Assembly (NCBI GenBank): GCA_001799735.1
Contig: MGUA01000032.1
Location: 1-60,467, forward strand
Direction: 5' to 3'
Length of the DNA: 60,467 nt
Source of the DNA: Elusimicrobia bacterium GWB2_63_22
Lineage (GTDB): Bacteria; Elusimicrobiota; Elusimicrobia; Elusimicrobiales; UBA9959
The notes beneath the pieces are model-generated. The model ran no database searches. It saw only the letters and a list, made by a program, of their open reading frames with translations, and was not told where the DNA came from. Shown here one piece after another: positions 2,404 to 29,361 of this stretch (its first letter is position 1; every line of letters starts with the position of its first letter). A program made the position numbers and the translations under genes.

Positions 2404-5319
2404 TTATCTGTTCCCGCCCTGTTCTTTCAGCTTGTCCTGGTAGTCTTTTTCCAGGCGCTCGCGGGCCTCTTTGAAGCGGCGTGCCAGCTCGGCCTCCCGC
2501 GCCGCGTAGCCTTCCTGCAGCGCGGCTTCGCGCTTCTGCAGGTCCGTCACCAGCTGCTGCTCCTGGTCGAGCACGGCCTTCAGTTTGGTGCGCTCGGCCT
2601 CCAGCTGGGAAGCGCGCATGCGCTGCGTGTCCTCCAGGTCCTTGCGGCGGGCCTCGAAATCGGAGCGCAGCCTGGCTTCCAGTTCGGCCAGGCGGGTGTT
2701 GTAGGAATTTATGGTTTCCTTGAGCTCGCTGTTCTTGGCTTCCAGCTCGTCCTTCATGCGGCCTACGCTCTCGGCCAGCTCGCGGTCCGTGTCTATCAGG
2801 GAGGATTTTTCCGAGAGCATGGCCTGGTAGCTGTTCTCCAGCTGCGCCTGGCGCGCGCCGAGCGCCCGCTCCTTGAGCTTGAAGGACTGTTCCATGGCCG
2901 CGGAAAGGTTCTTCTCGCGCTCCAGGTAGGCGGCCTCCATCGCTTTGGCCTGTTCGGCCAGCTGTGCGTTGAAATCGTCCTTCACGAACTGCAGCTTGCG
3001 GAAGTATTCGTCCTGGTCGGCCCGGCGGACCTCTTCCGAGCGCTTCGACAGGTCGGTCAGCTGGCCAAGGTAGTTCTGCTCTATGTCCTTGAGCTTGTCG
3101 AGGAACTCCTTCTCCAGGGTCTGGCGCAGGTCGCGGGCCTTGGTGAGGTTCTCCTGGATGAGCTTCTGTTTCTCGCGGGCGGCCTCTTCCAGGCGGGTGC
3201 TGAACAGCTCCAGCTCGTTCTTGGCGGTCGCGAGTTCGCGGGCGGTCGTTTCGCTCTCTCCCGACAGCTTGGCCAGGCTTTCCTCCAGGGCTTTTACCCT
3301 GCCGGCGACGGACTGTTCCTTGATGGCGAAATTCTCCGCCAGGTGGCGTTCGGCGGCCAGCGCGGCCTGGTCGGCGGAGGCGCGGTACTCTTTCTCCCGG
3401 GCCTCGTAAAAAGCTTTCAGCTCTGCCTCGCGGCGGGCCGCGGCTTCGCGCTCCAGCTCGCGCACTTTGCCCGTCTCGGCGTCCGCGGCCGCGGCCAGGG
3501 CGGCGCGCTCCTCTTCCCACGCGCGGCGGGCGGCCTCCGCCTGGGTCTTAAGGCTTTCGGAGTGGCGGAGGAAGTTGCCGGAGATCTCGCCTTCCCTTTC
3601 CTTGAGCGCCTGCATGAAGCGCTCCTGCGTCTCGGCGGAGCGCCGGTCCAGCTCCTCGCGCTCTTTTGCCAGGGCCTCTTCCTTTATCCGCAGCTGGGCG
3701 CCCAGCCTGGCGCTCTCGGCCTCTAGCTTTTCGGCGTAGGCGGCCTTTACGGCCCGCTCCCGCTCCGCGGCTTCGGCCTTGAATTTTTCTGTTTTAGCGC
3801 TGAACTCGGCCTCCAGCCTGTCGCGCTCCGCGGCCAGGCGCGCCCGTTCGGCCTCGGCGGCGCCCCTGGCGTCGGAGTCCAGCGCGGAGAGCGCGTCCTT
3901 AAGCCTGGCGTTCTCCTGCTGGGCGGCGGCGGCCCGGGCCAGGGCTTCGTCCTTCTGCGCCGCGAGGGAGGCGTAATGGCGGTCGATGTCCTCGTATTTC
4001 TTGGCGAGGCTCGCCTCCTTGATCTTGTAGGACTCCTCCAGCGACTGCATGGCCAGGGAGTTGCGCTCGGCGAAAGTCTTCTCCAGCTCCTGCTGTTTCT
4101 GGGCCAGCAGCGAGCCTATCTGGGCGCGCAGCGCGGCCAGCTCGCCGCGCTCGGCCCCGGCCTTGGCCTCCCGGGCCTCTATGGATTTAAGCCGGCGCTC
4201 GCTCTCCGCGGCGAAGTCCGCGAGGTTGGCGGCGTACTGGGCCTCGAGGCTTTTTTCCTTGTTGAGGAGCGCGTCCTTGCGGCGCGCGGCGTCCTCGCGG
4301 AGCGCGCGGGCGAGCTCCTCGTATTTGTCGGAAAGTTCCCGGTCACGGGTCAGGTGCTGCGCCTCCAGGCCGCGCCCGTGGGCTTCCAGGGCCGCCTCTT
4401 TCTCGGCGTAAGCGCGGCGCAGCTCGGCGTACTTTTCCTCCCAGGTCTTCTCCCGGGCGTCCAGCTCCTGGCGCGTCTTGGCCAGCGAGTCCTCCAGCCG
4501 GGCGGTCCTTTCCCGGTGCTCGGCCTCCACGGCCTCCGCGCGCCTGGCGTGTTTGTCCTCGATGAGCTTCTTGTTCTCCTCCAGCCAGGCGGCGTAATGG
4601 GCGTAGAGTTCCTGCTCGCGTTTGGAAAATTCGGAATTGAGGCGGTCGTTGAGCTCCCTGAGCTCCTCCACCCTCTCGCGGCGCATATGGCTGCGGATTT
4701 CTTCGGCGGAGATGGCCTCGCGGTTCTGGTAATCGGCTTCCTGCTGCAGCAGCTTCTGGCGCCAGAGCTCTTCCATCTGGCGGGCGCGCTCCAGGGCGTC
4801 TTTTTTGGCGGTCTCGCGGCCCAGCTTGAGCTCTTCTATGAAAGTCTCGCGCTCGTTCTTGAAATCGGCCTCGCGCTCGGCCTCCCATTTCTTGAAAAGG
4901 GCTTCCATCTCCAGCCGCAGGTTCTTCTTCTGGGCGGCCAGCTCGGTCTCTTTTTTATCGATATCGGCCTTCAGCAGTTCGCGTTCCGATTCAAAGTCCG
5001 CGCGCTGCCGGCTGACCGCGTCGTCGAGCATGGCCTGGTACTTCTGCCAGAGGGCGGATTCCTTCTCCACCAGCAGCCGCGCCAGCTCCTGCTCGCGCTT
5101 GGCGATGCGCTCCTCCTGGGCCCGCATCAGCGCCTCGAACTCGGCCTCCTTGGCCTTGTTGTTGCGCTGGATCTCCTCGAAGCTGCGCGAGCGCGTGGAG
5201 GCCACCTCCAACTCCTTGTCGTGCAGCTCGGAGGTGAGGCGCAGGATCATCTTGGCCGAGTCCAGCTCGGTCTCCTTGAGGATGTCCTCGAAATCGTGGG
5301 GGGGGATCCCGTTAGTCAT
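2404..5319 (-). CDS. Giant coiled-coil protein B (971 aa)
   Basis: No enzymatic domain is visible. After about 35 ordinary residues (MTNGIPPHDFEDILKETELD), the whole protein is a continuous run rich in Glu, Ala, Arg, Lys, Leu and Gln with heptad-like spacing and almost no Pro, i.e. a very long alpha-helical coiled coil. There is no signal peptide or membrane segment, so it is probably cytoplasmic. It starts 21 bases after the end of the similar protein A and has no clear Shine-Dalgarno, suggesting coupling. The C-terminus (AAREAELARRFKEARERLEK) resembles the end of protein A, so the two look like diverged paralogues. Roles by analogy could be a filament, scaffold or SMC/Rad50-like spacer, but no ATPase head is present. 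Similar composition is common to all coiled coils, so homology to named proteins should not be assumed. Confidence 0.85.
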   Translation of the reverse strand: MTNGIPPHDFEDILKETELDSAKMILRLTSELHDKELEVASTRSRSFEEIQRNNKAKEAEFEALMRAQEERIAKREQELARLLVEKESALWQKYQAMLDDAVSRQRADFESERELLKADIDKKETELAAQKKNLRLEMEALFKKWEAEREADFKNERETFIEELKLGRETAKKDALERARQMEELWRQKLLQQEADYQNREAISAEEIRSHMRRERVEELRELNDRLNSEFSKREQELYAHYAAWLEENKKLIEDKHARRAEAVEAEHRERTARLEDSLAKTRQELDAREKTWEEKYAELRRAYAEKEAALEAHGRGLEAQHLTRDRELSDKYEELARALREDAARRKDALLNKEKSLEAQYAANLADFAAESERRLKSIEAREAKAGAERGELAALRAQIGSLLAQKQQELEKTFAERNSLAMQSLEESYKIKEASLAKKYEDIDRHYASLAAQKDEALARAAAAQQENARLKDALSALDSDARGAAEAERARLAAERDRLEAEFSAKTEKFKAEAAERERAVKAAYAEKLEAESARLGAQLRIKEEALAKEREELDRRSAETQERFMQALKEREGEISGNFLRHSESLKTQAEAARRAWEEERAALAAAADAETGKVRELEREAAARREAELKAFYEAREKEYRASADQAALAAERHLAENFAIKEQSVAGRVKALEESLAKLSGESETTARELATAKNELELFSTRLEEAAREKQKLIQENLTKARDLRQTLEKEFLDKLKDIEQNYLGQLTDLSKRSEEVRRADQDEYFRKLQFVKDDFNAQLAEQAKAMEAAYLEREKNLSAAMEQSFKLKERALGARQAQLENSYQAMLSEKSSLIDTDRELAESVGRMKDELEAKNSELKETINSYNTRLAELEARLRSDFEARRKDLEDTQRMRASQLEAERTKLKAVLDQEQQLVTDLQKREAALQEGYAAREAELARRFKEARERLEKDYQDKLKEQGGNR

Positions 5320-15158: not shown

Positions 15159-15341
15159 TCAGGCGGTTCTCTCCAGCTGGCCCAGCAGTTTGGCTATCTC
15201 GGCGGCGGCCGAGTTCATCAAGGCCAGCATCTCCTTCTTCTCAGCGGGCGAGCAGTCCTTGTAAAGCTCGGCGGCGCTCTTGAGGCTGGAGCATTTGGAG
15301 CGCAGGTCGTGCAGCAGTTTGGAATTATCTATCCCGGTCAT
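15159..15341 (-). CDS. 60-residue stand-alone histidine-kinase phosphoacceptor-like protein
   Basis: A small gene whose ATG overlaps the TGA of the upstream sigma-54 activator (ATGA), so it is translationally coupled to it. The sequence [20 protein letters not shown] resembles the H-box of HisKA/DHp domains (HD-[IL]-R-S), as also present in the two kinases at 21.0 and 24.2 kb (AHDIRSPLAAL). The rest (KEMLALMNSAAAEIAKLLGQ) looks like the second helix of a DHp hairpin. No ATP-binding domain follows. It could act as a phosphotransfer protein or dimer partner for the activator's receiver domain. This is inferred from the short motif and coupling; an unrelated helical miniprotein is possible. Confidence 0.7.
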   Translation of the reverse strand: MTGIDNSKLLHDLRSKCSSLKSAAELYKDCSPAEKKEMLALMNSAAAEIAKLLGQLERTA

Positions 15342-16681
15342 TTCTTTCCCCCTTCGGTATCCAGCCCCAGTTTTTTGAGGGTGGCGTATAAAAGCCTTGT
15401 AGAGATCTTCAGGTCGGCCAGCGTTTTGGTGCGCACGCCGCCGTTCTCCCTGAGGTTGCGGCTGATGATATCCGCGGACACCTTTTCCAGGGCGGCGTCC
15501 AGGCCTCCGGCCAGGGCCGCGGCGTAGAGCGCGTCTTCCGCGGAGCCGGGCGCCGCGCACTGGCCCTTGAGATGGCGGCGGGCCGTCTCCAGGTCCACCC
15601 GGCCCTGCTGGCCGCCGGAGACCAGGTCCGTGAACTTCTTGAGCTCGCGGATATTGCCCGGCCAGGCGTAGTCCTGCATGAAGGCCTTGGCGTCCGGGCT
15701 GAACGAGAGCCGCCGGCCGCCCTTGGTGAAATGGTGTACCAGCGGGAAGATGTCCGCGCGGCGCCGCGCCAGCGGTTTGATGTTAATGGTGTAGCCGTGG
15801 ATGCGCTGGAACAGGTCGAAGCGCATCTTGCCCTGCGCGATAAGGGCCTGCGGGTCCTCCAGCGTGGCGCTGATGATGCGGAACTCGGAGCGCTCGGGCT
15901 TCTCGGAGCCGAGGGGATAAAAGGTCCTTTCCTCTATGGCCTTGAGCAGCTTCATCTGCATGTTGTGGCTCATCGTGCCGATCTCGTCGAGGAACAGGGT
16001 GCCGCGGTGGGCCTCCAGCAGGCGGCCCTTGCGGGCCTCGGCCGCGCCGGTAAAGGCGCCTTTCTTGTGGCCGAACAGCTCGGCCTCCAGCAGGTCGTCG
16101 GTATAGGCGGAGCAGTTGATGGAGACAAAGGCGCCCTCGCGGCCGGAATGCTCGTGCAGGATCTTGGCCAGCGAGGTCTTGCCGGTGCCGGAGGGGCCGA
16201 GTATCAGTATGGGCAGGTCGGTGGGCGCGTACTTAAGCGCTTCCGTGGCCGCCGCGCGCGTTTCCGCGTCCTCGGTGATGAAGGCGGAGGTGAAGATGTC
16301 GTCGGAGGCCGCGGCCCTGCGGTTCTGCAGGAACTTGCGCAGGATCTCACCCACATTAGCCTCTTCGTTGCCCTTGGCGTAGAAATCCGAAGCGCCCAGG
16401 GCGTAGGCCCGGTCTATCATCTCGTCCGAGTCCGAGCTGGAGACCACCACGCTGTAGATGCCTTTTTTTGCGGCCGCGGCTATGGCCTTAAGGCCGGAGT
16501 AGTCGTCGTTCACCCCCAGCATCAGGTCGAAGAAGCCGATGTCGTAGCGGCCGGCGTCCAGTTTTTTCAGGGCCGAGTCCAGGTCGGCCGCCATGTCCAC
16601 GTTGTGGGGGGCCAGGTGCGCGCCCATCACCTTCTGGGCCAACCTGTCGTCTTCCAGTACGAAAATGTTGAGTTTTTCCAT
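15338..16681 (-). CDS. Sigma-54-dependent response regulator (NtrC family)
   Basis: 447 residues in three parts. Residues 1-120 are a receiver domain with the acidic pair EDD near residue 11 and the phospho-Asp in FFDLMLG (about residue 52). Residues 135-370 are the AAA+ domain with Walker A GPSGTGKT (162-169), the sigma-54-contacting GAFTGA loop (208-213) and Walker B TLFLDEIG. The C-terminus ([19 protein letters not shown]) is a Fis-type helix-turn-helix. GAFTGA is intact, so it should activate sigma-54 polymerase. It is divergent from an RpoN-like gene and overlaps a phosphoacceptor-like miniprotein. A GGGGGAG precedes the ATG. No dedicated kinase is adjacent; the hybrid kinases 4-9 kb away are candidates. 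Confidence 0.94.
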
Positions 16682-16869: not shown

Positions 16870-17922
16870 ATGAAACACGGATTTAAACTGACCGCCTCCA
16901 CCGGGGCAAGAACTTCGGCGGCCCTGCTGGGCGCGCTTAAAATGGCCCAGATGGCCGAAATGCCCGAGGAAGAATTCGCGGACATGATAAAGGACCTGGA
17001 GGGCGGCCGCGTGTTCCAGCTGCTCAAGACCTCCGGCGCCATTAACCTGAGCGAGTTTCCCGCCGCCCGCTACGCCGCGCGCAAATACGCCGGCTACGGC
17101 CTCAACATGGCCAGCGCCGACCTGCCCGAGCTGGCCGACGGCACCGGCGACCTGGTGAAACTCATCCAGGGCATAGGCCAGGAAAAGTTCGAGGCCTGCT
17201 TCCTGCGCGACGCCGTGATGAGCGACATAGAGCGCGCCGAGGAATGCGACATTACCGTGCGTGACGCCGAGCGCCTGCGCGATTTCGTCAACCGGGCCTT
17301 CATCCAGGCCGAATTCGAGGCGAAGCCCGAGGCCCCCGCCGCCCGGGTGTTCAGCGCCGTGGCCGGCATAGAGATGGACGACGGAGAGCCGGTGCTGGCC
17401 TTCTTTCACCGCGAGATCTGGAAAGGCCGCTACAAGGTGGACGGCGACAAGCTGGCCACCCTGCTGCCCGGCCTGGACCCCGCCGAGCGCAAGCGCGTGG
17501 AGAAGCTGCTGAAAAAGATAGAGTTCGCCGACAAGCGAAAGACCACCCTTTACCGCGCGCTGGAGATCCTCATCAGCGTGCAGGCCGAGTACCTGGCCAC
17601 CGGCGACCCCAGCCGCCGCCGCCCCTTGTCCCAGAAGACGCTGGCCAAGAACCTGGAGGTGGACGCCAGCGTGCTCAACCGCCTGGTCTCCAACAAATCG
17701 ATACAGATGCCCTGGGGTATGGAGGCGCCCATGGAGGTGCTGCTGCCCAGCTCCAAGAAGGTCAACCTGGACCGCCTCTACTCCATAGCCGCCGAGCAGC
17801 CGCAGCTCAGCGACACCCGGCTCTGCGCGGAGCTGCGCGCCCGCCACGGCGTGGACCTGAGCCGCCGCTCCATCGCCCAGTACCGCAAGGACCTCAGCCT
17901 CGCCGCCGCGGGGGCGCGGTAG
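16870..17922 (+). CDS. Divergent RNA polymerase sigma-54 (RpoN)-like protein
   Basis: 350 residues, against about 450-500 for canonical RpoN. The C-terminal half matches RpoN order: YRALEILISVQAEYLATGD, then the helix-turn-helix RRPLSQKTLAKNLEVDASVL with NRLVSNKSIQMPWG (compare V-x-NKY-x-TP-x-G of RpoN), then LSDTRLCAELRARHGVDLSR and the RpoN-box-like SRRSIAQYRKDL (canonical ARRTVAKYRE). The N-terminal helix ALKMAQMAEMPEEEFADMIK resembles region I but without its Gln-richness. It is therefore a shortened, diverged sigma-54 or an RpoN-derived regulator. Divergent orientation to a GAFTGA activator supports a dedicated sigma/activator pair. I cannot tell whether a normal rpoN exists elsewhere. 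Confidence 0.78.
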   Translation: MKHGFKLTASTGARTSAALLGALKMAQMAEMPEEEFADMIKDLEGGRVFQLLKTSGAINLSEFPAARYAARKYAGYGLNMASADLPELADGTGDLVKLIQGIGQEKFEACFLRDAVMSDIERAEECDITVRDAERLRDFVNRAFIQAEFEAKPEAPAARVFSAVAGIEMDDGEPVLAFFHREIWKGRYKVDGDKLATLLPGLDPAERKRVEKLLKKIEFADKRKTTLYRALEILISVQAEYLATGDPSRRRPLSQKTLAKNLEVDASVLNRLVSNKSIQMPWGMEAPMEVLLPSSKKVNLDRLYSIAAEQPQLSDTRLCAELRARHGVDLSRRSIAQYRKDLSLAAAGAR

Positions 17923-17957
17923 CCAAAGGTCCCGGCACCGCGTAGGCCCTAGTGCCC

Positions 17958-17986
17958 TTACGCGCGCAAGACCCGTGATGTACACT
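17958..17986 (+). promoter_or_regulatory. Candidate promoter of the radical SAM/peptide locus
   Basis: TTACGC, 17 bp, TACACT. The -10 is the same hexamer as at 31307. It would give a leader of about 115 bases before the radical SAM gene. Confidence 0.4.
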
Positions 17987-18062
17987 ATCAGCGTAGTCTT
18001 CCTTGTAATTTGGGGGATTGGCCCCAGAGTATCCACGATCCGACCTTAATCGGATGTATCCA

Positions 18063-18099
18063 GGGAAAGCAAAAAGTCACTTTGCTTTCCCTTTTTTTA
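18063..18099 (+). terminator. Intrinsic terminator immediately upstream of the radical SAM gene
   Basis: Perfect hairpin with arms about 12 bp (GGGAAAGCAAA and TTTGCTTTCCC) and loop AAGTCAC, followed by seven Ts, ending nine bases before the ATG at 18109. It may terminate the RpoN-like gene or act as an attenuator if transcription starts at about 17993. A smaller hairpin (ATCCGA/TCGGAT) precedes it. Confidence 0.85.
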
Positions 18100-18108
18100 T
18101 CGGCAAAT

Positions 18109-19152
18109 ATGAGCACGAACTGGTTTGTGAAAAAAATTCTGGAGTTCACCGGGAGCCAAAAGTTCCTGAGCATCCAGATGGATATCACCAATGCCTGCAA
18201 CTTAAGGTGCGGTCATTGCTACCGGCCCGACAACGCGGCCCAGGACCTCCCTTTTTCGGATTGGAAGAAGATACTCGACCAGTACGGCCGCCTGACCGAG
18301 AAACTTGCGCTCAAGCCCTGCTTTGGTTTATGCGGAGGCGAGGCGACAATAAGCCCGTTGTTCATCCCCGTTCTTGGCGAGCTCAGGCGCAGGTGGCCGG
18401 ATGCGGTCATTAACGTGATAACTAACGGGACAACCATCTCCGCGAAGACCGCTGCCGAGCTCAGGTCCCATGGCGCCAACGTGCAGATATCCCTGGACGG
18501 CCCGGACGCGGAGCGCAACGATATGATCCGCGGCAGCGGGAGCTACTTAAAGGCGATGGCGGGGGTGGAGACGCTGCGTGCCGCCGGTATCCTGCCGTCG
18601 TTCCAGGCGGTCCTTTCTTTCCGGACAGGGCCATGGATCGGCGAGTTCTTCGAAGCTGCTGCCAGGCTGAAGGCGTCTGCGATGAATTTTACCAGGTTCG
18701 TCCCGCAGGGCAGGGGCAAGGAGTTGGTTTCAAATAATACGGACCGCGCGCTTGCCGGTTTGGAGTTGCGGGACGCATATGTTAAAATATTGAAAGAGTC
18801 GCGCAAAAGTGGTGTCGCGACTGGGACAAATTTACCGCTGTTCGTTCTGGTGGACCCGGCGCTTGGAGCGCATGGAAAAACCGGTTTCCAGGGGGTTGTA
18901 GTAGATTACCGGGGAAACCTTAAGCTGACAAGCCGGGCCGATTTCAGGTTGGGAAACATCCTGGAGGATGGCCTGGAAAATTTGTTCCTTAATCACCCGG
19001 TAATGAAAGATTTGCGGGCCGGCCGGATAGAAGTCTGCGGCGCCTGCGGTTACTATGACAAGTGCGGCGGCGACAGAAACGCCTCTTTTGTCGAGACCGG
19101 AAGCTTTTTAAAGAAAGACCCTGGCTGCTGGGTGCAGTTTGGGAACGTTTAG
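18109..19152 (+). CDS. Radical SAM/SPASM-type peptide- or cofactor-modifying enzyme
   Basis: 347 residues. The radical SAM motif CNLRCGHC (Cys30, 34, 37) binds the catalytic [4Fe-4S] cluster, GLCGGEATISP is the GGE-type SAM loop, and VQISLDGPDAERNDMIRG follows. The C-terminal SPASM-like region has VCGACGYYDKCGGDR with a last Cys in DPGCW, ligands for an auxiliary cluster. The family includes maturases of ribosomal peptides (AnSME, PqqE) and heme enzymes (NirJ/AhbD). The next gene, 13 bases on, encodes a 62-residue secreted peptide and no heme genes are near, so peptide modification is favoured. The ATG at 18109 lacks a Shine-Dalgarno; an in-frame extension to 18010 would run through the terminator hairpin and is rejected. 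Confidence 0.85.
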   Translation: MSTNWFVKKILEFTGSQKFLSIQMDITNACNLRCGHCYRPDNAAQDLPFSDWKKILDQYGRLTEKLALKPCFGLCGGEATISPLFIPVLGELRRRWPDAVINVITNGTTISAKTAAELRSHGANVQISLDGPDAERNDMIRGSGSYLKAMAGVETLRAAGILPSFQAVLSFRTGPWIGEFFEAAARLKASAMNFTRFVPQGRGKELVSNNTDRALAGLELRDAYVKILKESRKSGVATGTNLPLFVLVDPALGAHGKTGFQGVVVDYRGNLKLTSRADFRLGNILEDGLENLFLNHPVMKDLRAGRIEVCGACGYYDKCGGDRNASFVETGSFLKKDPGCWVQFGNV

Positions 19153-19165
19153 GGGGGAATATACC

Positions 19166-19354
19166 ATGTCAAAGAAGATAAAGAAGTGTTGCCTTGTGGT
19201 TCTGGCCATGTGCCCTATTATGGCTGTTTCTTTTGCCGCTCAATCATCGCTGAGCGTGGACCAGATCAGAAGGGGCAACGCCTCCGATGTGGCCCTGCAG
19301 GCCTCTACCACGTTGAGCCCCGCCGAAGGCGGCGGTCAGGAACTGGATAAGTAG
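19166..19354 (+). CDS. Small secreted peptide (62 aa), candidate substrate or signal
   Basis: Starts at an ATG with an AGGGGGGA ribosome site 13 bases after the radical SAM gene. MSKKIKKCCLVVLAMCPIMA continues to VSFAA, a clear Sec signal (positive n-region, hydrophobic core, AxA-like site), leaving about 37 residues: small, polar, with SVDQIRRGNASDVAL and a Gly-rich tail AEGGGQELDK. There is no lipobox Cys at the cleavage site. It is placed like a precursor peptide beside its modifying enzyme, or like a pheromone beside its sensors. A stable hairpin follows its stop. A function as a modified extracellular signal is inference; it could also be a small structural envelope peptide. Confidence 0.72.
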   Translation: MSKKIKKCCLVVLAMCPIMAVSFAAQSSLSVDQIRRGNASDVALQASTTLSPAEGGGQELDK

Positions 19355-19365
19355 GTTTCTCTTTC

Positions 19366-19391
19366 GGCCGGGGGGGCAACCCCCTCCGGCT
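19366..19391 (+). terminator. GC hairpin after the peptide gene, partial terminator or mRNA stabiliser
   Basis: GCCGGGGGGG-CAA-CCCCC-T-CCGGC, followed by a poor T-stretch (GTTGTTTT). It could set higher levels of peptide mRNA than of the downstream receptor genes. Confidence 0.55.
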
Positions 19392-19431
19392 GAAGTTGTT
19401 TTAATGGCCCGCTTTTTAATTAAACACGGCA

Positions 19432-20985
19432 GTGAATCTCAACAATAAATTAAGGGTAACCTTTTTCGCCTGCGCTGTTGCCGCTTTTGTAGCGGTAATT
19501 TTTTTTGCTTGGAACAAGATTATGACCGACCCAAATCAAACTTATAATTTCGGAATCGCAAGCTCCTGGGGGACCCTTACCCCGCCGCTGCAGCATCTTG
19601 CCGCGGGGGATGTGGTCATCAGCCACCAGTTCGAAAGCCTTATCGCCACCAGCGACAGGGGGATAGTGGAGCCTTTGGCCGCCAAATCCTGGGAGTTCAG
19701 CCCCGACAGACTGACCCTGCGCTTCAAGATAGATACTTCAAGGCGTTTTTCCGATGGTTCCTGCCTCCGCGCCGCGGATTTCAAGAAGGCCTGGGAAGGC
19801 GGCCTGGAAATGACCCCCATCTCCAGCAACAGCTCCCTGTCCGACGGGCTGGCGAACGTAAAAGGTTACGGTAAGTTCAAAGAGACGAAAGAGATAGAAG
19901 GCATAAAGGTTATCGGCGACGATATCCTTGAGATCGAGCTGGTTAAACCGGTGCGCATGTTCCTCGAATATCTTGCCGGCCAGCGCTTTGCGGTTTACAA
20001 ACTGGTCGACGGAGCGGTGATTGGTACCGGCCCCTACGTCATAAGCGAGAAAGACAAGGAATTGACCCTGATGCCCAACCCGTACTATATAGAGGGCGCG
20101 CCCAAGCTTAAGGCCGTTAAAATTACGGCCGTCACCCCGGCGGAAGCGTTCGGCAAGATGCAGGCCGGCGAGATAGACGCCCTGTTGATGGCGGAGATGG
20201 TGGATATTCCCGGCTGCGGGAAAGATTCGGGTGACGTTTCGTGCGCTCACGGCCAGGAGGGAAGGCATATCCTGGTGGATCTTAACGGCATGCCAGGCCG
20301 CTTCTTCTCCGATCCGAAACACCGCCTCGCTTTCCAGGCCATGGTCTTAAAGCATACCGACCAGGCCGCGGAGGCCTTCAGCGCGAGAAGCTTTATTGGC
20401 GACTCCCAGACTTTCCTCCGGTTCCAGGCAGGGCGTTTGCAAGAAGAAGAATCCGCCGCCATTATAGCGGAGGGGGAGAAATATATCAGCCGGTTTGTGG
20501 AAGCCAGCAAAAAACAGCCCCTGTTCTTTGCCGCCAACGCGAAGAGCTGGCAATGGCTCTATGAGCTGCTGATCTCGGCCGGGGTGAGCTTAACCAAAGA
20601 ATCCAAGTGGGAATTTTCAGGGCCGGGATTCTGGGATATGTATTACAAGACCTATACTCCCGATATCTTCCCGATGAGCATCTCCATTTCGGACGGGGAT
20701 CCGGACGGCTTGTACCATATCCTCGGCAAGCATGGCGCAGTAACTTCCCCGATGATACAGCGGGCCGGGGTTACCGCTGCGCTCGAAGAGGGGCGCCAGA
20801 TCATCGACGTCTCAAAGCTTCCCGGCCAATACCAGGTGGTCTCCAGGGCGGTCCTGCGGGAAGTCCCCTATATCCACCTTGGCTACCTATACAACAGGAT
20901 CGCCTACAACAAGAAGAAACTGCGGATAAACGACGCCTTGATCGCCAGACACAATAACAACGTGATGGCTTTCAGGCCTAAGTGA
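19432..20985 (+). CDS. Membrane-anchored family 5 solute (oligopeptide)-binding protein 1
   Basis: 517 residues. The N-terminus (VTFFACAVAAFVAVIFFAW) is an uncleaved-looking anchor or signal. The rest follows SBP_bac_5/OppA order: HQFESLIATSDRGIVEPLAA, AKSWEFSPDRLTLRFKI, FSDGSCLRAADFKKAWEGG, GTGPYVISEKDKELTLMPNP. Such proteins bind peptides or nickel complexes in the periplasm for ABC importers. Here no permease or ATPase is near; a hybrid kinase follows 13 bases on and a second SBP-kinase pair comes next, so a co-receptor role is likely. The start is a GTG at 19432 with weak ribosome binding; no better start exists in frame before the hydrophobic segment. Confidence 0.85.
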   Translation: MNLNNKLRVTFFACAVAAFVAVIFFAWNKIMTDPNQTYNFGIASSWGTLTPPLQHLAAGDVVISHQFESLIATSDRGIVEPLAAKSWEFSPDRLTLRFKIDTSRRFSDGSCLRAADFKKAWEGGLEMTPISSNSSLSDGLANVKGYGKFKETKEIEGIKVIGDDILEIELVKPVRMFLEYLAGQRFAVYKLVDGAVIGTGPYVISEKDKELTLMPNPYYIEGAPKLKAVKITAVTPAEAFGKMQAGEIDALLMAEMVDIPGCGKDSGDVSCAHGQEGRHILVDLNGMPGRFFSDPKHRLAFQAMVLKHTDQAAEAFSARSFIGDSQTFLRFQAGRLQEEESAAIIAEGEKYISRFVEASKKQPLFFAANAKSWQWLYELLISAGVSLTKESKWEFSGPGFWDMYYKTYTPDIFPMSISISDGDPDGLYHILGKHGAVTSPMIQRAGVTAALEEGRQIIDVSKLPGQYQVVSRAVLREVPYIHLGYLYNRIAYNKKKLRINDALIARHNNNVMAFRPK

Positions 20986-20998
20986 GAGCCTTGATCTT

Positions 20999-22597
20999 GT
21001 GACTGCCGAGACTTTTTCTGACTGGCTGCAGAAGCATGCAAAACGGCCCATCCTCAGGGTCGTTGCCCTGGCCTTAGCGATCCAGTCCGCCTACTTCTGT
21101 TTCCTGGCCTATAACAGGTATTCTGAACAGCTGGAAAAAATAGAGCTGTTGCGCGAGTCCGTAAGTATCGGCGTACAGCAATCCAACCGCCCGTTGATAG
21201 AGTCGGCGATACTGTCTTTCCTTTCAAACCCTGATGTTTCTGCGGTGCTTCTCTGCTCGGGGAACGCGCCGCAGATGGCTTATCCGCCGGATTCCCACGA
21301 TTACTGCAGGAATTCCGGTTCGAGCTTTAAAAAATGGGCGGTAAGGCGGGACCTGATCGGAGTGCAGGAGATAGCCTTGCTCGTCATCTTGAGCCCGGCT
21401 TCGGTCCTGCACCCGATGCTCTTCTGGATCGCCGTTTCAGTCTTAATGACCGGTTCCATTTTCTGGCTGCTGATGCGCGTGAAGCGGCGTTTTGAGGTGG
21501 AGATCCTCTATCCAATACTGGAAGGCCTGGATGCGGACATCCCGCTGGTGGTGAAGGAGCTGGAGGTGTTGCGCTCTAAAAATCTCGAAAGGCTCAGGCT
21601 GGTCCGGGAAAAAGCCGGGATGGAAGCTTTGGTTAATCTTTCAACGCAGGTGGCGCACGATATCAGGTCGCCGCTGGCGGCGCTGGGGGCGGCGGCTAAA
21701 GGGCTGGATCTCCCGCAGGAGCAGCGCAGCATGATAGACGGGGCGGTGGCGCGCATGCAGGGCATCGCCGACGACCTGCTGACCCGCTACCGCGCGCCTT
21801 CCGCCGGGCCGGCCAAACCTAAAACCTCGGTTCTCGTTCTTGCTGGTCTAGTCGAGCAGGTGGTCGCGGAGAAGCGCCTGCAGCACAAGGACAAGCCCGG
21901 AGTCAGTATAGATTTCGCCGCAGGCGCTGCGGAGATCAAAGCTTCCGTGGAGCCTACTGAGTTTCAGCGCCTGGTCTCCAACCTCATCAACAACTCGGTA
22001 GAAGCCTTCAGCGGGCCGGGTACCGTCTCGGTCGCCCTGTCCGCCCTGGACCATAAGGTGTTGCTGACCGTAAAGGACAATGGCAAAGGCATACCGCCGG
22101 AGATCCTGGCCAGGCTGGGACAGAAGGGCGAAACGCACGGCAAGGCCGGCGGCACCGGCCTGGGCGTTTACCACGCCCGCAAAACGGTGGAGAGTTGGGG
22201 CGGCAGCTTCAAGATAGAATCCGAATCTGGCAAAGGCACCGCCGTTACGCTGGAGCTGCCGGCGGCCGCTGCTAAAACCGTATCGGCGCGCGCGGTGCTG
22301 CTGGACGACGACCTGCTGGTGCATATGAACTGGCGGATGGCAGCCAAGGCGGCCGGCGTGGAGTTTAAGGCGTATAAAATCCCCGGAGAAATCATCGCAG
22401 ACGCCGAGGCCCTGCCCAAAGATACGCCGATCTATATAGACTCCGAGCTGGGCGGCGACGTTAAGGGCGAAGACACGGCCCAGGCCCTGCATGAGAAAGG
22501 CTTTACCGACCTCACCATGGCCACCGGCCACGGCCCCGAAAAATTCTCACACCTCCCCTGGCTTAAAGTAACCGGCAAAGAACCGCCTTGGAATTGA
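20999..22597 (+). CDS. Hybrid histidine kinase 1 with C-terminal receiver domain
   Basis: 532 residues. Transmembrane helices at about 19-38 and 138-158 enclose a periplasmic sensor of about 100 residues. The DHp domain has phospho-His220 in VAHDIRSPLAALGAAAK. The catalytic domain has the N-box LVSNLINNSVEAF, G1 DNGKGIPPEIL and G2 GGTGLGVYHA. Residues about 430-532 form a receiver domain with acidic LLDDDLL and probable phospho-Asp481 in IYIDSELGG, ending GHGPEKF...LKVTGKEPPW. No HAMP and no output domain are present, so signal must pass to another protein. It starts with GTG 13 bases after SBP1, suggesting that the binding protein presents its ligand to this kinase. Confidence 0.92.
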   Translation: MTAETFSDWLQKHAKRPILRVVALALAIQSAYFCFLAYNRYSEQLEKIELLRESVSIGVQQSNRPLIESAILSFLSNPDVSAVLLCSGNAPQMAYPPDSHDYCRNSGSSFKKWAVRRDLIGVQEIALLVILSPASVLHPMLFWIAVSVLMTGSIFWLLMRVKRRFEVEILYPILEGLDADIPLVVKELEVLRSKNLERLRLVREKAGMEALVNLSTQVAHDIRSPLAALGAAAKGLDLPQEQRSMIDGAVARMQGIADDLLTRYRAPSAGPAKPKTSVLVLAGLVEQVVAEKRLQHKDKPGVSIDFAAGAAEIKASVEPTEFQRLVSNLINNSVEAFSGPGTVSVALSALDHKVLLTVKDNGKGIPPEILARLGQKGETHGKAGGTGLGVYHARKTVESWGGSFKIESESGKGTAVTLELPAAAAKTVSARAVLLDDDLLVHMNWRMAAKAAGVEFKAYKIPGEIIADAEALPKDTPIYIDSELGGDVKGEDTAQALHEKGFTDLTMATGHGPEKFSHLPWLKVTGKEPPWN

Positions 22598-22670
22598 TCC
22601 TGTCCCGGATAGGGTTTTCCGCGGAGCGGCCAAATTGCGGGCGCTCGGCAAAAAAGGCACAATTATCTGG

Positions 22671-24182
22671 ATGAAACTCCGGATGATATTACCGGCCCTG
22701 CTTGCCGGGGCGGCGCTTTATTCGGCTTTTGCTATTTTAAAAGCCCCGTCCCGCGAGCTGAAGGTGCTGATGGATTCTTCCAACCCTCCTTCCGTCTATG
22801 ACCCGGTCTCGCTCGGTTACACGCGGGACTACTTTTTTTCGGAGAACCTCTTCAGCCCGCTGACGGGCTATTCTTCCGGCAATGAACTGGTTTCCGAGCT
22901 GGCCGAGAAGTTCGAATGGGCCGGGGGAGAGGCCGTCTTCACCATGCGACCCGGCCTCAAGACCGCCGGGGGCCGGTCGATAGACGCCTTCGACGCCGAG
23001 CAGAGCCTTAAAAGGGCCTTCGTCCTGGGCGGCACCAGCTACAGTTTCCTCGGCCGCATGCTGTGCGGGCGGGGCAGCCTGAAAAGCCTGCAGGACCCCT
23101 GCCCGGGCCTGGAGGTGCGCGACGGTGGCCGCCGGCTGGTGATGAAGTTCGACGGGCCCAAACCTTTTCTTTTCCACCTGCTCACCAATATCGCCTACGC
23201 CGTGGTCCCGCGCGGCTCCGTGGACCCGGCGACCCTGAAGATAACGGACTACCGCAACACGTCGGGGCCGTATTACCTGGACGCCGACCTGGGCCTGGGG
23301 GACATGGTGCTAAAGGGCAACCCCGCACATTACCGCTATTCCAAAAAAATGCCGCGGCAGGTCAGGATAGTCAGCCTGAAAAAATACAATACCAACGAGG
23401 AATCCCTGGCCACGCTTTCGAGCGGCACGGCGGATTACCTGACGATAGGCCTGGTGCTTAAGCCGGAGGACAAGGCGGACTTCGCCGCCGCCCACCCCGG
23501 CTACTCCGTGCATTTTACGCGGCCGGTAAGGATGATCTACATCGTGTTCACCGACCGCGGCCTGAAGCGCCTTTCCCGGGAGGAAAGGTTCTATATCGCC
23601 AGTAAGCTCCGCGCTCTTTATCCCAGCCGGCGGCGCATGAACGAGAGCCCGTACCAGCTGTTTGCCATGGAGGGCGCGCTGTCCAAGGCCCAGCTGGAGG
23701 ATATCCGCGCCCGGCTGACCGGCGGGCCTGACATGGTGATAAAGAAGAGGGTGGAGGCCAGGCGGCTCTACAGTTATTTCTGGCTGGACTTGGACGAGAT
23801 AAAAAAATGGCTGCCGGGCATAGCCTACGCCGACACCGCGCCGCTCAAGGACAGAAAAAATCCGCCTAAACCCGATTTCTTCCTTCTGGGCAGCGACATC
23901 GGCTACCAGGACGATATCGGGCTGGTACTGTATTACCTGGGCCTGGAGTTCTTCGATCTGAGCCCGGAGGGGAAAGAGAAATGGCTGGCCGCCTACGTGG
24001 CCTGCCCGGGCAAGAAAGAACGGATGGCCATGCTCCGGGAGCTGCATTATAAGACCCTGGCCGGGGCGCGCGCCATCCCCATAGGCCTTATGCCTTACGC
24101 CTCTATCGCGCGGGAGCCTTGGGAATTTAACTACCCGGCGGCTATCGCCGGCGACCATTTATGGCGGCTTAGGAGAAAGTGA
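22671..24182 (+). CDS. Membrane-anchored family 5 solute-binding protein 2
   Basis: About 503 residues, a second SBP_bac_5-type protein. MKLRMILPALLAGAALYSAF is a hydrophobic anchor or signal; FSENLFSPLTGYSSGNEL, FEWAGGEAVFTMRPGLKTAG and TSGPYYLDADLGLGDMVLKG follow the family pattern. It is clearly diverged from SBP1, so the ligands may differ. The ATG at 22671 is preferred over an in-frame TTG at 22635. Its stop overlaps the next kinase (GTGATG), showing translational coupling. As with SBP1, no ABC transporter subunits accompany it, which points to sensing rather than uptake. Confidence 0.83.
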   Translation: MKLRMILPALLAGAALYSAFAILKAPSRELKVLMDSSNPPSVYDPVSLGYTRDYFFSENLFSPLTGYSSGNELVSELAEKFEWAGGEAVFTMRPGLKTAGGRSIDAFDAEQSLKRAFVLGGTSYSFLGRMLCGRGSLKSLQDPCPGLEVRDGGRRLVMKFDGPKPFLFHLLTNIAYAVVPRGSVDPATLKITDYRNTSGPYYLDADLGLGDMVLKGNPAHYRYSKKMPRQVRIVSLKKYNTNEESLATLSSGTADYLTIGLVLKPEDKADFAAAHPGYSVHFTRPVRMIYIVFTDRGLKRLSREERFYIASKLRALYPSRRRMNESPYQLFAMEGALSKAQLEDIRARLTGGPDMVIKKRVEARRLYSYFWLDLDEIKKWLPGIAYADTAPLKDRKNPPKPDFFLLGSDIGYQDDIGLVLYYLGLEFFDLSPEGKEKWLAAYVACPGKKERMAMLRELHYKTLAGARAIPIGLMPYASIAREPWEFNYPAAIAGDHLWRLRRK

Positions 24183-25669
24183 TGGACCCTGAAATCAAAA
24201 GATCCGTGCGCCAGCTCTTCGTAAAGTTCCTGCTTTTCCAGGCGGTGATCTTTGTCGCGGCTGTGGCGCTGTCGCTGGTTTTTACCGGCTACTTCAAGGC
24301 CCGGCTGGGCCGGCAGCTGGCGGCCGCTTCCCGCGACTCGCTGCTGGCCGGGGACGCGCGCCACGTGATAACCACCATGCCTTCCTCCATGTCGCGCGAC
24401 TTTACCGGCATGGTCTGGCGGCCGGCAGGGCAGGAGAAAGGTTTCAGCGTGCCGGCCGGCGCCGAGAACAGCTCGGGGATGTTCTACACTTACTCCCGGA
24501 TGGGTGTTTGTTTCGACGAGGATAGAAAAGTTCCGGCCGGGGAACTGTTCTTCTACTACCCCCGCTGGACCCCCGTCAGCTGGGGCGTCCTGTCCTGGCT
24601 GGTAATAGCGCTGCTCTCGCTGCCGGTGGCGCTGCGGGAGCGGCGCAGGCTGATACGGGACTACACCCTGCTCCTGGACCTGCGCATAAAGGAATCCTAT
24701 TCCGCGCTGGCCGCCCAGGTGGCGCACGACATCAGGTCGCCGCTGGCCGCGCTGGACTCCGCGCTGGCGGACTTCTCCTCCGTGCCGGAGGACCGGCGGG
24801 AGCTGGCCCGCGGCGCGCTGGGGCGCATCGGCGAAATAGCCAGGGACCTGCTTGAAAATTACAGGGTGCCCGGGGCTCCCGCCCCGGCGGCGAAAGCCGT
24901 AGCCGCGCACGATCTTAAAGCCCTTGTCGCGCCGGTGATAGCGGAGAAGCGGGCCCAGTACTCTTCCAGGGCCGGCCTGGCGATAGAGTTTTCGGGAGAA
25001 GACGGCGTGCGGGCCAGGGTGCATCCCGCCGAACTGCGCCGCATGGTGTCCAACCTGGTCAATAACGCCGTCGAGGCTCTGGACGGCCCCGGGCGCGTGT
25101 CGGTGAGCCTGTCCCGGGGCGGGAGCGTGGTAACGCTTAAAATAAGCGACGACGGCAAAGGCATACCTCCGGAGATCTTGTCTAAGCTGGGGCAAAAGGG
25201 AGCGACGCACGGCAAAGCCGGCGGTACCGGACTCGGCCTTTATCATGCCCGCTCCTGCGCCGAGTCCTGGGGCGGAAGTTTAAATATAACCTCCCGGCCC
25301 GGAGCCGGGACCGAAGTAGCGATAGAATTGCCGGAGGCGGTACCGCAGGCCGCTCCGAAGAACGCGGTGCTTATCGACGACGACGCGCTGGTGCGCATAA
25401 ACTGGAAAACCGCCGCCCGCGTCCATGGCGTGGAGCTGCTGGTTTTCTCCGCCCCGGCCGACTTCCTGGCGGCGGCCGGCGGGGTGCCTAAAGACACGCC
25501 CGTGTACATAGATTCCAACCTTGGTAACGGCATCAGGGGAGAGGAGATCGCCGTACAGCTCAAGGAGCTGGGTTTTACCGACATCTGCCTGGAGACCGGG
25601 CATGCCCCGGAAAAATTCTCCGCGATAAACTGGCTTAAAGTTGCCGGCAAAGAGCCGCCCTGGGCTTAG
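24182..25669 (+). CDS. Hybrid histidine kinase 2 with C-terminal receiver domain
   Basis: About 495 residues and a close structural twin of kinase 1: transmembrane helices at about 14-35 and 132-150, DHp His182 in VAHDIRSPLAALDSAL, N-box MVSNLVNNAVEAL, G1 DDGKGIPPEIL, G2 GGTGLGLYHA, then a receiver with LIDDDAL and phospho-Asp in VYIDSNLGN, ending LKVAGKEPPW. The periplasmic part differs from kinase 1, consistent with different inputs. The ATG at 24182 has AGGAG six bases upstream; the adjacent GTG (24179) is too close to it. Both kinases lack a DNA-binding output, so a separate phosphotransfer protein or regulator is needed. Confidence 0.92.
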   Translation: MDPEIKRSVRQLFVKFLLFQAVIFVAAVALSLVFTGYFKARLGRQLAAASRDSLLAGDARHVITTMPSSMSRDFTGMVWRPAGQEKGFSVPAGAENSSGMFYTYSRMGVCFDEDRKVPAGELFFYYPRWTPVSWGVLSWLVIALLSLPVALRERRRLIRDYTLLLDLRIKESYSALAAQVAHDIRSPLAALDSALADFSSVPEDRRELARGALGRIGEIARDLLENYRVPGAPAPAAKAVAAHDLKALVAPVIAEKRAQYSSRAGLAIEFSGEDGVRARVHPAELRRMVSNLVNNAVEALDGPGRVSVSLSRGGSVVTLKISDDGKGIPPEILSKLGQKGATHGKAGGTGLGLYHARSCAESWGGSLNITSRPGAGTEVAIELPEAVPQAAPKNAVLIDDDALVRINWKTAARVHGVELLVFSAPADFLAAAGGVPKDTPVYIDSNLGNGIRGEEIAVQLKELGFTDICLETGHAPEKFSAINWLKVAGKEPPWA

Positions 25670-25776
25670 CGCCGGCCGGCTATGGGCCCAGGCGTCTCCT
25701 GGGTCCAAAAGCCCTGTTGCGGTCAGCCCGGGTATTGTAAGATAGTGTTACTGCGGGGATAGGGGAAACGATAAAA

Positions 25777-26763
25777 ATGAAAAAGACAATTCTGGCCGCT
25801 CTCGCGGCGATATTAATACTCGGCCTGGGCGCCAACGCTTTCGCCCGCGTAGTTTCATCCGGGACGGCTTATAGCGAGGCCGCCGATTCTATCCGTTCAG
25901 GCGGAATGGACGACGAGTCCCCCATTATCCCCGAACTCCCGCCCAACCCTGACCCTATTATCATCCCGGAGCCCGGTGACCCCAGCGAGGAGCCGACCGA
26001 CCCCGACCCGGTCGCGGTCCCGGCGGACGGGATCAGGACTTTTCCCGCGGCGGAGATAAGATCCATCCTCGCGACTACGGAGGTCGGGCCGATCACCGTG
26101 GCCGGCAGCGACGGGGACGTGACGGTGGAAGTATTCGGCGGCGACCCTGAAAAATGCAGGGTGACCATGGAATTGCGGGAGGACAAACTTCTCCTAAGGA
26201 CCGAGAGCAGCCGGAAAGTAAAAGAGAGGGTGCCTTTCGGCCGCGGCAAAAAATGGGCGGATTGCCCTGCCGGCCTCAAGGTGCGGGCCCCTTCGGGAGT
26301 CGATTTTAACGCCAAGTCGGGCGCAGGCAAGATAGGCGTCTCCGGGATAGCCGGCGCGGTTTCCGTTAAAAGCGGCAGCGGCGCCGTCGCCTTGTCGGCC
26401 CTGGCCGGCGAGGTGGAGGTGGAGGTCGGCATGGCCGATATTTTCGGGGAGCTCTGCGCTAAACAGCTGACCATCAGGGGCCGCGGCGCGAAGGTCGATC
26501 TGACGGGTCTCTGCGGGCCGGCGGATATAGATACCGGCGGCGGCAGCGTAGCCCTGGAATGGGCCACGGTCCCCGCCTCCGGAATGGCCAGCGTTAAGAC
26601 CAAGGTCGCTGATATCTTCCTGGTCTTCCCGCTGGACGCCTCTATCGGCGCCAATCTGAAGAGCTACACCGGCTCAATAACTAACGAGTTCGCCGAAGGC
26701 GGCGCCTTCAGCGTCCTCGCCAGGTCCCGTGCCGGGAACATCTCGGTACTGAAAGCTAAATAG
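25777..26763 (+). CDS. Secreted DUF4097-like beta-repeat protein with proline-rich linker
   Basis: 328 residues with a Sec signal (MKKTILAALAAILILGLGAN). An acidic, Pro-rich linker at about 48-85 (PEPGDPSEEPTDPDP) precedes a repetitive beta-rich domain: VDFNAKSGAGKIGVSG, AVSVKSGSGAVALSAL, SLKSYTGSITNEF-like strands. This is the pattern of DUF4097 beta-helix/adhesin-like proteins (G-x-hydrophobic-SG-G steps). It is probably periplasmic or surface-exposed. It follows kinase 2 by about 107 bases with its own AGGGGAAA ribosome site and could be a target of the preceding sensory block, though no regulatory site proves this. No catalytic residues are evident. Confidence 0.75.
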   Translation: MKKTILAALAAILILGLGANAFARVVSSGTAYSEAADSIRSGGMDDESPIIPELPPNPDPIIIPEPGDPSEEPTDPDPVAVPADGIRTFPAAEIRSILATTEVGPITVAGSDGDVTVEVFGGDPEKCRVTMELREDKLLLRTESSRKVKERVPFGRGKKWADCPAGLKVRAPSGVDFNAKSGAGKIGVSGIAGAVSVKSGSGAVALSALAGEVEVEVGMADIFGELCAKQLTIRGRGAKVDLTGLCGPADIDTGGGSVALEWATVPASGMASVKTKVADIFLVFPLDASIGANLKSYTGSITNEFAEGGAFSVLARSRAGNISVLKAK

Positions 26764-29169: not shown

Positions 29170-29287
29170 GCGCTCTCCTTGTCCACCGTATTTATACAAA
29201 ATTTGGGCGCCGGGAGGAGTGCCTAGGGCAGATTTGACAGCCGGCGCTGTTTTTAAGATAATTTAAATAATAAGTTTGGGTAAGGGT

Positions 29288-29361
29288 CCGGGGCAACCGC
29301 CCCGGAGGCGTGGAATGGTTGGGCCGCCATTCCGGTTGAGATACCGGGGGCGGCTTTTCTT
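29288..29361 (+). promoter_or_regulatory. Structured leader with alternative hairpins upstream of the PorV-like gene
   Basis: Hairpins CCGGGGC-AACC-GCCCCGG (29288-29305), GGAATGG/CCATTCC and GGT/ACC follow one another. The right arm of the first (CCGCCCCGG) can also pair with CCGGGGGCGG at 29344-29353, which is followed by CTTTTCTTT. This is the arrangement of a terminator/antiterminator switch. No known riboswitch class recognised. Confidence 0.5.

Follow-up and report, generated by a model that had tools for sequence, protein, structure and literature searches.

Does a bacterium make, modify and secrete a small peptide only to sense it again through its own solute-binding proteins (SBPs) and histidine kinases? 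This question is raised by a gene cluster in a 60,467-nucleotide stretch of DNA from Elusimicrobia bacterium GWB2_63_22 (hereafter the window, meaning the whole stretch analysed), for which a sequence-only reading had proposed that a radical SAM-modified secreted peptide is sensed by two pairs of an oligopeptide-binding protein and a hybrid kinase. LuxP-LuxQ, ChvE-VirA and TorT-TorS are SBP/kinase co-receptor systems, and agr, ComCDE and SHP/Rgg are peptide signalling systems. A link of RaS-RiPPs to peptide signalling has also been reported (PMC13361665). The gene content and positions given by the sequence-only reading were confirmed in full, the cluster comprising six genes, all on the plus strand (cassette types are defined further below):

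18109..19152, plus strand: radical SAM/SPASM enzyme, the type A peptide modifier (PF04055, Radical_SAM, 2e-16)
19166..19354, plus strand: 62-residue secreted peptide precursor (MSKK..VSFAA, then QSSLSVDQIRRGNASDVALQ..), of a family kept in eight other type A loci
19432..20985, plus strand: SBP1, family 5 solute-binding protein with an N-terminal membrane anchor (SBP_bac_5, PF00496, 4e-29; OppA/DppA/NikA-type fold)
20999..22597, plus strand: HK1, hybrid histidine kinase with a C-terminal receiver-like domain (HATPase_c, 9e-24)
22671..24182, plus strand: SBP2, receptor of type E (peptide-SBP-kinase), own peptide absent (52-60% identity to the SBPs of loci L187, L190, L194 and L196)
24182..25669, plus strand: HK2, type E hybrid histidine kinase (HATPase_c, 3e-24; 52-60% identity to the kinases of the same four loci)

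The enzyme, which is 53-74% identical to its counterparts in other type A cassettes, displays a CNLRCGHC motif and what read as SPASM-type cysteines at its C-terminus. The peptide gene starts 13 bases past its stop codon and encodes a hydrophobic signal sequence with an AxA-like end (VSFAA, followed by QSS). A radical SAM domain with an adjoining precursor gene is the arrangement of RiPP maturases of the radical SAM/SPASM type, and modification of the peptide is predicted. SBP2 is divergent (SBP_bac_5 1e-5, under the Pfam cut-off), and the start of HK2 overlaps its stop codon. Both kinases end in a receiver-like (REC) domain, in which the acidic pocket and D residues align; this region is kept across cassette types, and the C-terminal strand/helix order in the HK1 model is REC-like. 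The AlphaFold run on HK1 gave no confident model of its sensor region and no usable sensor domain. Among the named genomes, the kinases have their nearest relatives mostly in Elusimicrobia metagenome assemblies, of which many come from groundwater.

An oligopeptide-binding protein might simply serve an importer, and the AlphaFold model of SBP1 (pLDDT 78) is indeed alike in fold to OppA/DppA/NikA-type SBPs (Z about 30). The cluster itself has no gene for an ABC permease or ATPase, as the sequence-only reading had noted, and the OppB/DppB-type permease family PF19300, the one family searched, gave no match at E 0.001 in the whole source genome (3.06 Mb, 95% complete), a search that detected it in 11 of 14 control genomes. 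The importer reading was rejected on this count. Because no Opp/Dpp-type permease was found in the genome, sensing is favoured over import, and the cassette SBPs are probably sensors, as had been supposed. An SBP adjoining a sensor kinase, in a genome with no detectable permease of this type, is the configuration of SBP/kinase co-receptors, in which SBP1 would contact HK1.

To place the cluster among its relatives we used a sample of 84 riboswitch sites from the family with their downstream DNA and 40 further kinase-anchored stretches, together with sites from other families and from named genomes. This recovered about 50 SBP/kinase cassettes in related Elusimicrobiota, falling into five types. 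Type A, that of the window, has the order radical SAM/SPASM-peptide-SBP-kinase; type B has peptide-YydG-like radical SAM-SBP-kinase, with some members adding a beta-lactamase-family protein (PF00144); type C has peptide-SBP-YcaO-kinase; type D has peptide-YcaO-SBP-kinase; and type E has peptide-SBP-kinase with no modifier. The source genome itself contains, on contig C1, a paralogous complete type A cassette behind a 2'-deoxyguanosine-II (2'-dG-II) riboswitch, and the second type A cassette of locus L057 is reordered to peptide-SBP-radical SAM-kinase with all four parts retained. The modifier thus comes from either of two radical SAM families or either of two YcaO families, or is missing. The idea that a radical SAM enzyme defines the cassette was rejected, since YcaO or nothing takes its place in other types.

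These comparisons alter the earlier proposal in two respects. That a peptide accompanies the SBP/kinase pairs stands, but its modification by a radical SAM enzyme is not a fixed feature, the modifier elsewhere being YydG-like, a YcaO protein or absent. The idea that one peptide is sensed by both pairs is not supported, in that SBP2/HK2 belong to a different type, whose members elsewhere (L187, L190, L194, L196) come with an unrelated peptide of their own and lack a modifier; judged by these relatives, the SBP2/HK2 pair of the window is an orphan receptor, a type E cassette that lost its own peptide. Outside Elusimicrobiota, an Oligoflexia bacterium (L298) encodes a 56-aa secreted-looking peptide, an SBP and a related hybrid kinase in one run.

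Is the peptide a real and constant part of these loci? A dedicated small secreted peptide gene accompanies the receptor, as it would in a pheromone system, in 47 of the 50 loci counted, namely those with SBP and kinase present (some kinases being cut by the contig end) and with upstream sequence available; at one of the 47, L188, it lies on the opposite strand. Such a peptide may activate the receptor beside which it is encoded. The sequence-only reading had asked for a peptide gene that is always present and co-varies with the SBP, and had held that homologous loci lacking it would count against the idea. Peptide-less loci are rare (L115, L213 and SBP2/HK2 of the window), so that the gene is nearly but not strictly constant, and co-divergence with the SBP was observed in type B. 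A secreted small ORF lies within 350 nt at 28 of 29 cassette riboswitch sites where the peptide is expected to come first, versus 1 of 50 sites without a cassette (p 4e-19); among random stretches the share is 0.4%. In the within-type peptide pairs computed, pS is far above pN (for the window versus G034, 0.82 and 0.22). Because the family recurs in eight other loci and pS well exceeds pN in the computed pairs, the window peptide gene is, on these sequence grounds, not a chance ORF. Secretion is predicted from a hydrophobic stretch, together with an A-x-A-like ending in types A and B. The peptides of types C, D and E share no obvious sequence with those of type A, and hence their common role is proposed from position. 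Separately, small ORFs 3' of the cassette kinases in L115 and L134 share a leader-like LNMTxGExLTLEKAxDRxEFEALP and look like further RiPP precursors; the one in L115 has a Cys-rich tail and sits before a radical SAM gene.

The co-divergence was analysed by Mantel distance correlation in 18-19 type B cassettes, in which the mature peptides average 26% identity, the SBPs 39%, the radical SAM enzymes 42% and the kinases 68-73%. The Pearson form gave r of 0.39-0.66 for peptide and SBP, 0.49-0.65 for peptide and enzyme and 0.71-0.80 for enzyme and SBP (p 0.0005 or below), with the rank form being weaker for peptide and SBP (r 0.29, p 0.012). Neither half of the kinase showed a significant correlation with any of the three in this set. 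The pattern fits a scheme in which the SBP would be the specificity element and the output is shared. As the co-diverging genes adjoin one another, shared inheritance combined with kinase gene conversion could mimic such specificity, the correlations being computed without a species tree.

What governs the expression of the cluster is suggested by a set of elements immediately upstream of it:

17943..17959, plus strand: candidate promoter-proximal palindromic operator TAGGCCCTAGTGCCCTT, with an upstream half-site near 17926-17936
17958..17986, plus strand: promoter-like sequence from sequence reading, -35 TTACGC, 17 bp, -10 TACACT, with the predicted start just before the aptamer
17998..18068, plus strand: 2'-dG-II riboswitch aptamer, full length (RF03165, 85 bits against a gathering threshold of 60, E 2.9e-23)
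18062..18098, plus strand: intrinsic terminator that uses the 3' strand of P1 as its 5' arm (hairpin of -16.9 kcal/mol, then a U run)

The class is reportedly one defined in a 2017 paper. By covariance score the window element belongs to it, covering model positions 1-71 with one non-standard pair, and binding of 2'-dG is predicted. The terminator is linked to the aptamer as an expression platform by its use of the P1 3' strand, with predicted folds at -35.5 for the terminated form versus -27.5 for the aptamer form. Because the two share this strand, the ligand should prevent termination, and 2'-dG is predicted from this layout to switch the operon on. Within the family, 53 of 59 genomes contain an RF03165 riboswitch; across the phylum the figure is 97 of 341. 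At least 46 of 84 riboswitch sites show a terminator, a lower bound in that many of the sites counted as lacking one were cut off at a T run within the loop of the hairpin; sites showing no T run mostly precede genes for ComEC-type metallo-beta-lactamase-fold (MBL) proteins. Cassettes of all five types, A to E, are preceded by the riboswitch. It was not recognisable at L181, L190, L194, L213, L055, L056 and the first cassette of L057, and a strict requirement for it was rejected, as it is absent, degraded or interrupted in some cassettes (L179, L181, L190, L194, L196). At L196 (G018:C228, oriented bases about 3690-3790) there is a 2'-dG-II-like aptamer under the Rfam threshold with a hairpin-sized J2-3 insertion, possibly a variant riboswitch.

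The strict form of the operator occurs upstream of 38 of 82 of the riboswitches versus 0.4% of random window stretches. Within the window alone the pattern is no more frequent than in shuffles, and in the source genome it is in modest excess over the reversed control (7 versus 2); its enrichment holds upstream of riboswitches. At the non-cassette riboswitch sites, 14 of 49 first genes encode MBL proteins, one representative of which has the ComEC nuclease domain as its best NCBIfam match, two others having been run against Pfam only. The source genome has an MBL gene behind a riboswitch, and the operator scan of the same genome recovered genes for endonuclease I and a secreted clostripain-like protease, with no riboswitch seen by eye between operator and gene at either. 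The 2'-dG-II targets listed in PMC8872408 include ComEC, endonuclease I, phospholipase D and a signal receiver domain. The aptamer of the window is a full-length hit to this class, and the listed targets overlap with the regulon seen here. Peptide/SBP/kinase cassettes do not figure in that gene list, and the class is placed there in Bacteroidetes, in contrast to the many copies per Elusimicrobiota genome seen here. At L096, L137, L155, L158, L162, L165 and L175 the riboswitch is followed by a gene for a secreted protein family of about 300 aa, with no Pfam match in the one member tested; at L096 this gene lies ahead of what by eye are FtsX- and EnvC-like genes.

On the other side of the control region are three genes, the first two of them candidates for the output of the kinases:

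15162..15341, minus strand: mini-DHp, 60 aa, candidate phosphotransfer protein with a HisKA-like pair of phosphoacceptor helices but no ATPase (weak HisKA match, E 0.0097, below the Pfam cut-off)
15338..16681, minus strand: NtrC-type sigma54 activator with a receiver domain, candidate output regulator (Response_reg, Sigma54_activat)
16870..17922, plus strand: sigma54-like protein, of which the DNA-binding domain alone was recognised (Sigma54_DBD, 3e-15)

The mini-DHp and the NtrC-type activator lie beside the window cassette and are convergent with the kinase in several other cassettes. Homologues of the activator adjoin a mini-DHp and a kinase in L023, L119, L121, L144 and L205, and the mini-DHp is present in 30 of 34 kinase-positive genomes of the family versus 5 of 25 others. 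Together the two are likely the kinase output, with an order of relay that would run from one to the other. Relatives of the sigma54-like protein occur near the type A cassette of L054 and just upstream of the type B cassette of L110. The riboswitch with its terminator, the promoter, the shared operator and the proteins that probably form the output were absent from the sequence-only reading; the riboswitch, the operator and the output proteins link the peptide system to DNA breakdown.

Taken with the receptor evidence, the reading that we regard as fairly probable is that self-made peptides are read by SBP/kinase receptors and that this is gated by DNA breakdown. Intracellular 2'-deoxyguanosine would bind the 5' aptamer and stabilise P1, preventing the overlapping terminator from forming and so turning on the operon. 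Its radical SAM/SPASM enzyme would modify the small precursor, which would be exported via Sec, bound outside the inner membrane by the membrane-anchored SBP1 and presented by it, as a co-receptor, to HK1. The signal may then pass from HK1 to its own receiver domain, the mini-DHp protein and the NtrC-type activator. In cassettes of types A to E, different peptide/modifier/SBP modules would be plugged into related kinase outputs, and the peptide-less SBP2/HK2 may hear a peptide made elsewhere or be decaying. We infer the response to 2'-dG in vivo, the modification, the peptide as ligand and the order of the phosphorelay.

The resemblance of the type B enzymes to the peptide epimerase YydG, the closest among NCBIfam models (4e-16), suggests another use for the peptide. 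It might be an epipeptide- or bacteriocin-like killing factor that lyses kin or neighbours for their DNA, with the SBP/kinase pair sensing toxin or envelope damage for self-protection and the 2'-dG switch creating a feed-forward loop in which lysis would lead to more toxin and nuclease. YydF/EpeX is described as a toxin in Bacillus subtilis cannibalism (PMC7026026, PMC12871923), and the regulon includes secreted nuclease-like proteins. However, the type B enzyme scores 59 bits against TIGR04078 (YydG), far under the curated equivalog cut-off of 300, no immunity or export gene was recognised within the cassettes, type E lacks a modifier, and the mature peptides are by eye neither strongly cationic nor strongly hydrophobic. 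We consider this explanation, the main rival, rather unlikely.

There are two further accounts. The SBP/kinase pairs could be chemosensors of dead cells that detect foreign peptides or breakdown products, the small peptide being an accessory such as an SBP plug, chaperone or lure rather than a signal. Family 5 SBPs have many ligands, and the operator also precedes the protease and endonuclease I genes; nevertheless, such nutrient sensing would not explain why there are dedicated modifying enzymes or why peptide, modifier and SBP diverge together, and we judge it improbable. More improbable still is that the secreted peptide acts as a chelator or carries a cofactor and is detected by the SBP once loaded: the close fold matches of SBP1 include NikA and CntA, and many type B peptide tails contain Cys, but the mature window peptide and several others have neither Cys nor His, and metal genes were not seen in the cassettes.

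The cassettes have partial counterparts among known systems. With LuxP-LuxQ, ChvE-VirA and TorT-TorS they share an SBP, without a permease found, that adjoins a hybrid or membrane kinase, but here the SBP is of family 5, shares its locus with genes for a small secreted peptide and a modifier, and occurs in at least five co-diversified types. As in agr, ComCDE and SHP/Rgg, an exported small peptide, a modifying enzyme and a sensor are found in one locus, the peptide being variable and the output conserved; unlike in those systems, the SBP rather than the kinase appears to carry specificity, export would be by Sec, a nucleoside riboswitch stands ahead and the host is presumably diderm. The type B cassettes share with YydFG/EpeXE of B. 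subtilis a peptide gene directly upstream of a radical SAM gene nearest YydG, but have an SBP/kinase pair where no EpeP-, EpeA- or EpeB-like genes were seen. A description of the gene layout of the window cassette was not found in the literature searched, which comprised open-licence papers. Each component is known, and their combination and multiplication into types is new to that literature; pending biochemical proof, we regard it as a variant of peptide signalling.

Tentatively, and with less than even confidence, we extend this to a family of peptide communication systems that spans the phylum and is gated by riboswitches, in which swappable peptide, RiPP enzyme and SBP modules would feed related hybrid-kinase/mini-DHp/NtrC outputs and, production needing 2'-deoxyguanosine, cells would talk only while surrounding DNA breaks down. 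The 2'-dG-II riboswitch would thereby be placed in a physiological context, namely a regulon of secreted DNA-scavenging functions that includes peptide cassettes, and a radical SAM- or YcaO-modified peptide would be read by an SBP/kinase co-receptor. The cassettes would also provide a large natural set of variants in which peptide, enzyme and receptor changed together, making specificity directly testable, and would bring peptide sensing to a phylum with almost no experimental microbiology. In these little-studied groundwater bacteria they look like an undescribed system of communication (or of self-killing) with ties to DNA scavenging.

Two further features lie downstream of the cluster. A second operator-like pair and a promoter-like sequence (25680-25777, no Rfam match reported) precede the gene at 25777, which encodes a secreted-looking protein of 328 aa, and positions 29284-29332 on the plus strand match the nhaA-I RNA motif with 39 bits (gathering threshold 37).
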